Positions 32,134-33,538 of a stretch of 33,538 nt of DNA are shown in pieces. The notes beneath the pieces are model-generated. The model was not told the origin of the DNA. It saw only the letters and a program-made list of their open reading frames with translations, and did not search any database. The position numbers and the translations under genes are program-made. Location: assembly GCA_030602185.1 (NCBI GenBank), contig JAUWAE010000009.1, positions 1 through 33,538 of the forward strand. The letters are read 5' to 3'. The stretch comes from Comamonadaceae bacterium (GTDB lineage Bacteria; Pseudomonadota; Gammaproteobacteria; Burkholderiales; Burkholderiaceae_C). The first letter of the stretch is position 1; each line of letters starts with the position of its first letter.

Positions 32134-33213
32134 ATGAGCAAGACGTACCGCATCGCTGTCATCCCGGGCGATGGCATTGGCAAGGAAGTGATGCCCGAAG
32201 GCCTGCGCGTGGTGCAGGCGGCGGCGCAGCGCTTCGGCCTGTCGCTGGAGTACACCCACATCGACTGGGCCAGCTGTGACCACTACCTGCAACACGGCGA
32301 CATGATGCCGCCCGACTGGAAGCAGCAGTTGCAGGGCATGGACGCGATCTATTTCGGCGCGGTGGGCTGGCCGGCCACGGTGCCCGACAACGTCTCGCTC
32401 TGGGGCAGCCTGCTCAAATTCCGCCGCGAGTTCGACCAGTACATCAACCTGCGCCCGGTGCGCCTGTTCGATGGCGTGCCCTGCCCGCTGGCCGGTCGCC
32501 GGCCGGGCGACATCGACTTCCTCATCGTGCGCGAGAACACCGAGGGTGAGTACACCAACCTGGGCGGGGTGATGTTTGCCGGCACCGAGCGCGAGATCGT
32601 GGTGCAGGAGTCGGTGTTCAGCCGCTACGGCACCGACCGCGTGCTCAAGTTTGCCTTCGAGCAGGCGGCCGCTCGGCCGCGCCGCCACCTCACCGTGGCC
32701 ACCAAGAGCAACGGCGTGGCCATCAGCATGCCCTGGTGGGACGGCCGGGCCGAAGCCATGGCCGCCGCGTACCCGCAGGTGCAGGTGGACAAGCAGCACA
32801 TCGACATCCTGACCGCACGCTTCGTGCTGCAGCCGCAGCGCTTTGACGTGGTGGTGGCCAGCAACCTGTTCGGTGACATCCTGTCGGACCTCGGGCCCGC
32901 GTGCACCGGCACCATCGGCCTGGCACCATCGGCCAACCTGAACCCGGAGCGGCGCTTCCCCTCGCTGTTCGAGCCGGTGCATGGCTCGGCCCCCGACATC
33001 TACGGGCAGAACATCGCCAACCCGGTGGCCATGATCTGGTCGGGTGCGCTGATGCTGGATTTTCTGACCGGTGGCCAGGGCGCCGGCCGGCAGGCGCACG
33101 ACGCGGTCGTGGCCGCGATCGAGGCCGTGTTGCGAGAAGGCCCGCGCACCCGTGACCTGGGTGGCCAGGCCAGCACGACCGAGATGGGCCAGGCCATTGC
33201 GGCCCGCTTGTGA
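32134..33213 (+). CDS. ttuC: Tartrate/D-malate dehydrogenase (TtuC/DmlA-like beta-decarboxylating dehydrogenase)
   Basis: 359 residues from the ATG at 32134, with CAGGAGA at 32121-32127 as ribosome binding site. It belongs to the isocitrate/3-isopropylmalate dehydrogenase family: IAVIPGDGIGKEV at the start, substrate-binding FRREFDQYINLRPVRLF and VRENTEGEYTN, catalytic DKQHIDILTARFV and metal-binding NLFGDILSDLGPA, then EPVHGSAPDIYGQNIANP. LRPVRLFDGVPCPLAGR and the NTEGEYTNLGG segment fit the tartrate dehydrogenase/decarboxylase (D-malate dehydrogenase) branch rather than LeuB, but this is recognition by eye. It uses NAD and Mn/Mg to oxidise and decarboxylate tartrate or D-malate. It stands alone; the terminated RNA candidate precedes it by 80 bases. 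Confidence 0.85.
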   Translation: MSKTYRIAVIPGDGIGKEVMPEGLRVVQAAAQRFGLSLEYTHIDWASCDHYLQHGDMMPPDWKQQLQGMDAIYFGAVGWPATVPDNVSLWGSLLKFRREFDQYINLRPVRLFDGVPCPLAGRRPGDIDFLIVRENTEGEYTNLGGVMFAGTEREIVVQESVFSRYGTDRVLKFAFEQAAARPRRHLTVATKSNGVAISMPWWDGRAEAMAAAYPQVQVDKQHIDILTARFVLQPQRFDVVVASNLFGDILSDLGPACTGTIGLAPSANLNPERRFPSLFEPVHGSAPDIYGQNIANPVAMIWSGALMLDFLTGGQGAGRQAHDAVVAAIEAVLREGPRTRDLGGQASTTEMGQAIAARL

Positions 33214-33243
33214 GCCCCCGCGCCGCGAAGAACCCCAAAAACC

Positions 33244-33274
33244 AAAAAAAAGCCCGGTCGCGGTGACCGGGCTT
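33244..33274 (-). terminator. Rho-independent terminator on the minus strand
   Basis: A 10-bp stem AAGCCCGGTC/GACCGGGCTT (33250-33259 and 33265-33274) with a GCGGT loop is followed on the minus strand by eight Us (As at 33244-33251). There is no T-run on the plus side, so it serves minus-strand transcription only, although no minus-strand protein gene ends here. Confidence 0.85.
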
Positions 33275-33353
33275 GAACCACCCATAGAGGGCAGAGGAGA
33301 CAACTGAAAGCGGGGGCTGGCCCCGGGCGATGCAACCAGCGATTGCATACAAT
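33244..33353 (-). ncRNA. Candidate small RNA with exposed anti-Shine-Dalgarno motif
   Basis: On the minus strand a promoter (33360-33388) and an intrinsic terminator (33244-33274) delimit about 110 bases that hold no convincing protein-coding frame. From 5' to 3': hairpin ATGCAA/TTGCAT with 7-base loop (plus 33330-33348), hairpin CGGGG/CCCCG with 5-base loop (33311-33325), an unpaired linker containing TTGTCTCCTCTGCCCTCT (33286-33303), and the terminator hairpin. CUCCUCU can pair with Shine-Dalgarno sequences. The layout resembles CCUCCUCCC-bearing small RNAs of other proteobacteria in concept; homology is not claimed. Confidence 0.6.
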
Positions 33354-33359
33354 GGGGTT

Positions 33360-33388
33360 AGTATAAACCCGATATTGTTGCGTTGCAA
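33360..33388 (-). promoter_or_regulatory. Sigma-70-type promoter for the minus-strand RNA
   Basis: Reading the minus strand, TTGCAA (33383-33388) and TATACT (33360-33365) are separated by 17 bases. TATACT matches TATAAT at five of six positions. Transcription would start near 33353. Confidence 0.6.
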
Positions 33389-33391
33389 CAA
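33375..33391. promoter_or_regulatory. Inverted repeat overlapping the -35 of the minus-strand RNA promoter
   Basis: TTGTTGC (33375-33381) and GCAACAA (33385-33391) are 7-bp perfect arms around GTT. It covers the -35 box of the small RNA promoter and lies 40 bases before the OsmC-family start, so a regulator here could control both. Confidence 0.45.
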
Positions 33392-33430
33392 GTCTCGAAA
33401 ATCTGCTGTTGTTTTTTGGAGAGTGTTCCC

Positions 33431-33538
33431 ATGGAATGCACCGTCACCTGGACCGGCGTCGCCGGTACCCGCTCTAACATGGGCTTTGTCGCCGAAACCG
33501 GCAGCGGCCATGTGCTGGCCATGGACGGCGCGCCCGAC
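33431..33538 (+). CDS. OsmC-family protein (N-terminal part only)
   Basis: The last 108 bases encode 36 residues that begin MECTVTWTGVAG and contain GHVLAMDGAPD, matching the start of OsmC/YhfA-type proteins, thiol peroxidases or related redox proteins. The ATG at 33431 has GGAGAG at 33418-33423, 7 bases before it. The redox cysteines would lie beyond the window end. Which OsmC subgroup it belongs to cannot be judged. Confidence 0.75.
   Translation, partial: MECTVTWTGVAGTRSNMGFVAETGSGHVLAMDGAPD

Follow-up and report, generated by a model that had tools for sequence, protein, structure and literature searches.

The minus strand at positions 33244–33391 of the window (the whole 33,538-nucleotide stretch that was analysed) looks like a genuine small RNA (sRNA) gene, kin of a known family of mRNA-silencing RNAs. 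What is new here is that the inverted repeat over the sRNA −35 box fits the published palindrome of PhaR, the polyhydroxybutyrate regulator that senses stored polyester granules. The best explanation, which we regard as probable, is that an S17-type sRNA stands under a PhaR operator, is derepressed by granules and blocks starts of the AGGAGACA type. The gene anatomy, its conservation, the operator match, the fixed register of that match, the motif common to phasin genes and the complementarity to 29 sites before ATG codons are all observed directly in the sequence.

The original prediction placed a minus-strand promoter and a U8 terminator around this gene, and both were borne out. TTGCAA-17-TATACT, with the −35 box at 33383–33388 and the −10 box at 33360–33365 separated by a 17-nt spacer, is the only sigma70-like site in 32500–33538, compared with a mean of 0.0 in 50 shuffles. 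The sigma70-like and sigma54-like sequences named here are judged against the customary consensus sequences. The intrinsic terminator (33244–33274, minus strand) has a 10-bp stem (33274–33250) followed by a run of eight T down to 33244, and its stem is the longest among three terminator-like sites in 32500–33538, where 1.0 (sd 1.1) would be expected. Since the T run lies on the minus strand only, the terminator is not that of the plus-strand ttuC-like gene, and that assignment was rejected. Folding and an alignment of nine orthologs agree with the predicted product of about 110 bases (33244–33353), whose start is placed 7 nt after the −10 box, and with its two leader hairpins, I (33327–33350; the loop is very variable in length among relatives) and II (33311–33325). 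The predicted order along the RNA is hairpin I, hairpin II, an open UUGUCUCCU, hairpin III (33278–33294, the equivalent of the first hairpin of RF02278) and the terminator, and in the predicted fold only UUGUCUCCU and the loop UCUAU are unpaired. Of the two pieces of linker proposed to be open, UUGUCUCCU is so, whereas CCCUCU belongs to hairpin III, where it forms the 5′ arm and runs into the loop. The conserved core TTGTCTCCTC (33294–33303, minus strand) is mostly single-stranded according to its unpaired probabilities and is the complement of AGGAGACA-type start sites; by analogy with S17S, a short form produced by processing may begin here. The interval 33244–33391 as a whole folds with z = −3.71, and 0 of 200 shuffles were equally stable.

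A check across relatives found the stems, the core and the terminator kept in orthologs, in line with the original prediction. With blastn at E ≤ 0.01, 42 of 200 same-family genomes (the own genome included) match the window sRNA. Near-full-query matches occur at seven other loci (L002–L007 and L010), L008 matches in the 3′ part and has a leader that can be aligned, and nine orthologs can be aligned from the transcript start to the T run. Among these nine full-length orthologs, two-sided changes that preserve pairing affect 12 of the 30 predicted pairs, although gaps in the loop of hairpin I make the pair-change counts there uncertain. Hairpin II shows such changes in 4 of its 5 pairs, each of the five being broken in one to three of the nine orthologs. 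In 43 short forms, two-sided changes are found in 6 of 11 pairs, and the core TTGTCTCCTC is identical in 43 of 43 sequences, these having been selected for that core. Conservation is strongest in the core and the terminator, and the leader hairpins carry two-sided changes. Both features speak against the reading that the conserved signals are just a terminator and a leader, or a small mRNA translated from an ATG in the leader. Such an ATG does stand at the leader start in 9 of 9 orthologs, and the long form of Bordetella S17, S17L, holds a 32-residue frame (PMC11722255), but the frames behind the ATG diverge among the nine orthologs and have different ends. A small protein from this ATG was therefore rejected, no minus-strand protein gene is supported, in line with the original prediction, and we consider this reading highly improbable.

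Rfam at its curated thresholds gave no match for the window gene. The best permissive match is to RF02278 (Betaproteobacteria_toxic_sRNA), with 45.0 bits over the full model (1–64; E 6.9e-8) against a gathering score of 50 bits. The gene shares the RF02278 layout of UGUCUCCUC, a hairpin and an intrinsic terminator, in that order, and has UGCCC where the model has cACCU. Score and layout place it among the relatives of the double-hairpin (‘toxic’) sRNAs of betaproteobacteria, on a divergent branch under the Rfam threshold. RF02278 matches at E ≤ 0.001 occur in 170 of 200 same-family genomes (the own genome included), 141 of them over the cut-off, and in 0 of 14 control genomes; a search of 120 genomes of the order at E ≤ 1e-5 gave matches in 63, of which 48 exceed the cut-off. 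One genome from another family of the order (G206, contig C1) contains RF02278 matches at nine places, and three of these fall within 1642577–1646602. In the own genome, a further match at C8:6766 (26.5 bits) looks spurious. Anti-hemB, mmgR, SorX and ncS54 were rejected as identities, every score being under its cut-off. Anti-hemB (RF02837, Burkholderia) does share hairpins, CU-rich parts and a terminator with the window gene, and scores 36.7 bits, below its cut-off of 49.5. The RNAs ncS03, ncS05, ncS27 and ncS62 of Burkholderia cenocepacia belong to RF02278 and likewise consist of UGUCUCCUC, a hairpin and a terminator, and their CU-rich open part is predicted to pair with ribosome binding sites. 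The Burkholderia double-hairpin RNAs differ from the window gene in the latter's two leader hairpins and in copy number, three to five against one strong copy in the own genome.

Within this family the window gene is likely the positional counterpart of S17 from Bordetella, a reading based on the coq7 gene order in relatives and on an S17-like promoter layout. S17 adjoins coq7, and its mapped promoter consists of TTGCAT, a 17-bp spacer and TACTAT (PMC11722255); the window gene has a sigma70 promoter with a −35 box of the form TTGCAN and the same 17-bp spacer. Like the window gene, S17 and its short form S17S in Bordetella pertussis show an open CU-rich part, then a hairpin and a terminator, with a leader upstream of the short form and coq7 nearby (PMC11722255). 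S17 is 190 nt long, compared with about 110 nt predicted here, and is cleaved by RNase E to a 67-nt form (PMC11722255). The two RNAs were compared by means of the statements made on S17, which include two mismatches to an RF02278 member (PMC11722255). The coq7 gene lies upstream in 6 of 8 related loci read further out (L002, L097, L104, L109, L135 and L224) and was not seen at L112 and L221 among those eight. Five of the six show the order coq7–osmC–sRNA, L224 being without osmC; COQ7 is recognized by Pfam at L002 and L097, and in the four others by resemblance. The own coq7 is out of view because the contig ends inside osmC, at window position 33538. This divergent OsmC-family gene, of which the window has the truncated start (33432–33538, plus strand), was part of the original prediction and holds up: the encoded 35-residue piece shares its beginning with the complete OsmC protein of L003 (PF02566), while a Pfam scan of the piece alone gave no match. 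Among own-family loci, osmC lies divergently upstream of the sRNA in 104 of 119, and an ilvA-like gene lies downstream in 72 of 121 loci; that gene is presumably ilvA, the profile evidence being just a PALP match.

The predicted inverted repeat over the −35 box is present at 33375–33391 (minus strand). Its sequence, TTGTTGCAACGCAACAA, agrees at 17 of 17 positions with YTKNTGCRNYGCANMAR, the palindrome deduced for PhaR of Ralstonia eutropha (PMC12849132), and contains the motif TG[N]TGC[N]3GCAA of Herbaspirillum PhbF, which has been footprinted at the phbF promoter. The consensus of PhaR/PhbF sites is backed by gel shifts and footprints (PMC12849132 for the PhaR palindrome). The own genome also encodes PhaR, so that a YTKNTGCRNYGCANMAR palindrome at the promoter and a PhaR gene occur together, the combination looked for in a member of the PhaR regulon. 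PF07879 (PhaR) is encoded in 195 of 200 family genomes, the own included; of the five without it, four are 55–87% complete and one 96%. With PhaR this widespread, comparing its presence with that of the palindrome is uninformative. Exact YTKNTGCRNYGCANMAR sites number six in the 2.8-Mb own genome, with none for the reversed pattern: they lie in the sRNA promoter, at the genome's two phasin genes, upstream of an aceA-like and of a ppa-like gene, and once inside a coding frame. These matches suggest that the palindrome is a PhaR operator in the sRNA promoter.

The motif recurs at related sRNA genes. With at most one mismatch it is found within 130 nt upstream of 46 of 77 named sRNA loci (among the matches listed) and in 7 of 3542 control windows; when two mismatches are allowed, the figures are 65 of 77 (again among the matches listed) and 122 of 3542. 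The named loci are the 77 that passed a filter (core, T run and 130 nt of upstream sequence) among the 80 listed of at least 120 stretches. Loci of family genomes gave 26 of 48 against 8 of 1906 control windows (at most one mismatch, 130 nt), and for other families of the order, where 200 nt upstream were searched, the values were 6 of 26 against 0 of 1036 (at most one mismatch) and 16 of 26 against 38 of 1036 (at most two); 26 of 29 such loci were used, three with a different core being left out. Because the sRNA loci are akin, these counts cannot be treated as independent, a dependence for which the control windows make no correction. When 68 related promoters with a good palindrome were aligned at it, 66 had their best −10-like hexamer 24–27 nt from the palindrome start, and this fixed register implies that the palindrome includes the −35 box.

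This register bears on the stress control that the original prediction derived from the repeat and the neighbouring gene, that is, on the reading in which the palindrome serves the divergent osmC as its operator, the sRNA being expressed constitutively or just affected along with it. The palindrome indeed follows osmC: among own-family loci, 94 of the 104 that have osmC carry it with at most two mismatches, as do 4 of the 15 that lack osmC (L161, without osmC, has too short an upstream sequence for scoring), and in other families at 11 of 12 loci with osmC and 4 of 12 without. Because it follows osmC synteny in this way, the palindrome may have a role at osmC too. However, its spacing from the putative osmC ATG, taken by a loose pattern at 64 loci, is variable (sd 34 nt), whereas that from the sRNA −10 box is fixed, and the motif recurs at phasin promoters. 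An osmC operator as the sole meaning of the palindrome was therefore rejected, control by stress through OsmC was not supported given the fit to a PhaR operator, and we regard this reading as very unlikely.

A more serious alternative, though still an unlikely one, is that the gene is an S17-type sRNA with some other regulator on the palindrome, or merely with a symmetric −35 region, so that storage status would be irrelevant. It draws on exceptions to the palindrome. The close ortholog L007 (genome G166) keeps the −10 region and the core and has no palindrome, with PhaR present in that genome. Eight loci without osmC and palindrome (L029, L096, L113, L114, L141, L162, L167 and L173; four from Paucibacter, three from MAGs labelled Burkholderiales or Rubrivivax, and one from a further genome) carry a sigma54-like TGGCAC[GA]-N-[CT]TGC just upstream. 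This pattern was drawn up after viewing those sequences and its count is descriptive; it is a possible sign of a switch of regulator at the palindrome-free copies. In addition, the S17 paper links its RNA to the Bvg mode, and PhaR, OsmC and PHB are absent from its main text (PMC11722255). Against this reading stand the gel shifts and footprints behind the PhaR/PhbF consensus, the rarity of the exact palindrome (six sites in 2.8 Mb, including two at phasin genes) and the occurrence of the motif before nearly all phasin genes sampled.

The phasin genes served as a check that the palindrome means PhaR in these genomes. Of 32 phasin genes (30 loci among the matches listed from 100 genomes searched, plus the two own genes), 31 have the PhaR motif with at most one mismatch in the 250 nt upstream, compared with 8 of 1112 windows. 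The same genes often carry, behind the stop codon, an element resembling the window sRNA. Among the 32, 23 have TGTCTCC no more than 220 nt behind the stop, compared with 12 of 1112 control windows that hold this heptamer, and in 23 of 23 cases it reads [AG]TTGTCTCCT with a T run behind it (by a loose test). These TTGTCTCCT elements with their terminators lie at C70:818–887 of the own genome (L033, L216) and at 22 of the loci L249–L278. C70:818–887, just behind a phasin stop, is also a weak RF02278 match of 26.3 bits, a score which alone proves nothing because 11 of 14 control genomes give matches at the same lax threshold. When 20 of the 23 elements were aligned, two-sided changes were seen in 8 of 9 pairs of the terminator stem, and RNAalifold recovered this stem only and not a GGNNCC stem seen by eye. 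The element is absent from 9 of the 32 phasin genes, and the own phasin gene of C53 has the operator and lacks the 3′ element. From the 23 phasin elements and the sRNA gene it follows that both carriers of the core sit behind PhaR-type operators. A processed phasin 3′ end at UUGUCUCC would support a candidate 3′UTR-derived sRNA.

The open stretch of the window RNA contains UGUCUCCU, the exact complement of AGGAGACA. In the own genome AGGAGACA-N1-9-ATG occurs at 29 sites and its reversed control at none; the more general AGGAGNNA-N1-9-ATG occurs at 104 sites against 23 in the reversed control. As AGGAGNNA sites are enriched before ATG generally, the zero control for AGGAGACA partly reflects Shine–Dalgarno use. 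AC accounts for 29 of the 104 AGGAGNNA pairs and the next, CA, for 13 among 100 listed (counted by hand); AGGAGACA before ATG is thus about twice as common in the own genome as the next AGGAGNNA type. Some of the 29 ATGs may start no gene, because L291 shows the frame of a neighbour and four frames are short (50–70 residues). The proteins behind 10 of the 29 were scanned and comprise PhaC (PhaC_N), TctC, DctP, DctM and NMT1-like transport proteins, a RuBisCO small subunit, transketolase-like (pyruvate dehydrogenase E1-like) and transhydrogenase-like proteins, an acyl-CoA dehydrogenase and an AMP-binding CoA ligase. This range fits what has been reported or predicted as targets of S17 (PMC11722255) and NcS27, namely transporter and catabolic genes. 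Repression by S17 is thought to act through pairing at ribosome binding sites, with reporter evidence for BP2158 (PMC11722255), and overexpression of NcS27 attenuates growth and the use of several carbon sources; S17S impairs E. coli only modestly, on entry into stationary phase (PMC11722255). The duplex of the core with the phaC start region has an energy of −12.8 kcal/mol, and one of 300 shuffled start regions was as good. Of 20 regions fetched from relatives, two held phaC (59.8 and 62.3% identity), and in both AGGAGACA was not found before this gene, the start codons there being uncertain. Kinship with S17 and NcS27, published or predicted to act in this manner, and the 29 complementary sites give good support to a trans-acting RNA that masks ribosome binding sites. 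Of the first reading as a whole this part is well supported, and the stress control is not.

For the preferred reading, an S17-type sRNA under PhaR, we infer expression, PhaR binding, the direction of control, processing, involvement of Hfq and the actual targets as follows. A sigma70 promoter with its −35 box inside the PhaR operator would drive the sRNA, and PhaR on the operator would block this promoter while storage granules are absent. PhaR is reported to leave DNA for nascent granules, so a promoter whose −35 box it covers is expected to open as polymer accumulates: polyhydroxybutyrate granules would bind PhaR, and the sRNA promoter would open together with the phasin promoters. Cleavage ahead of UUGUCUCCUC would probably shorten the transcript of about 110 nt, and the resulting short RNA, probably together with Hfq, would pair with ribosome binding sites of the AGGAGACA type. 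Translation of genes for carbon uptake and metabolism would then fall, perhaps including that of the PHA synthase gene phaC. The closest precedent for a PhaR-repressed sRNA is MmgR (alpha-r8, RF00519) of Sinorhizobium meliloti, which PhaR/AniA represses via a promoter dyad and which is tied to phasins and granules. The likeness would lie in control, and we do not claim descent from a common ancestor: the RF00519 match of the window gene is weak (26.1 bits; gathering score 41), and the RF00519 model has the order hairpin, CU-rich linker, terminator, in contrast to CU-rich part, hairpin, terminator in the window.

We compared these results with PMC4603805, PMC5688073, PMC11722255, PMC10987360, PMC12849132, PMC3206438, PMC12542648, PMC8401924 and PMC7011215. 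Among the matches listed in open-licence PMC, no paper joins PhaR with double-hairpin sRNAs, or phasin 3′ ends with small RNAs. In B. cenocepacia, ncS03, ncS05 and ncS27 rise 8.0-, 6.9- and 4.3-fold in glucose medium, the regulator of sRNA accumulation is stated to be unknown, and three double-hairpin RNAs share an upstream motif (PMC5688073, Figure S3). A 2021 review calls the riboregulation of PHB in Cupriavidus necator undeciphered (PMC8401924), and the S17 promoter is postulated to be derepressed in vivo by an unnamed factor (PMC11722255). For sRNAs of the RF02278 kind, found in 170 of 200 family genomes and undescribed as to their control in B. cenocepacia, a PhaR operator makes the question testable. 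We give an even chance to a wider, Burkholderiales-wide arrangement with two arms, in which PhaR would drive a dedicated S17-type sRNA and a 3′UTR-derived twin from the phasin mRNA, both blocking AGGAGACA by means of UUGUCUCCU, so that filling the store would stop further carbon uptake and perhaps the store's own polymer synthase. If true, the two-armed reading names PhaR as the unnamed repressor postulated for S17, and a phasin mRNA with the same element at its end would give a storage-granule gene an additional, unexpected way of acting on other genes. In these bacteria the carbon reserve may thus be coupled to a brake on protein synthesis.

Further PhaR-type palindromes lie near other genes of the own genome, namely an isocitrate lyase-like gene (C201:11617–11633, L218) and an inorganic pyrophosphatase-like gene (C134:3061–3077, L217), and an imperfect one lies near a succinate dehydrogenase-like gene (C280:5855–5865, L035); we take these genes to be aceA, ppa and sdhC, respectively. 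Their palindromes suggest a wider PhaR regulon.
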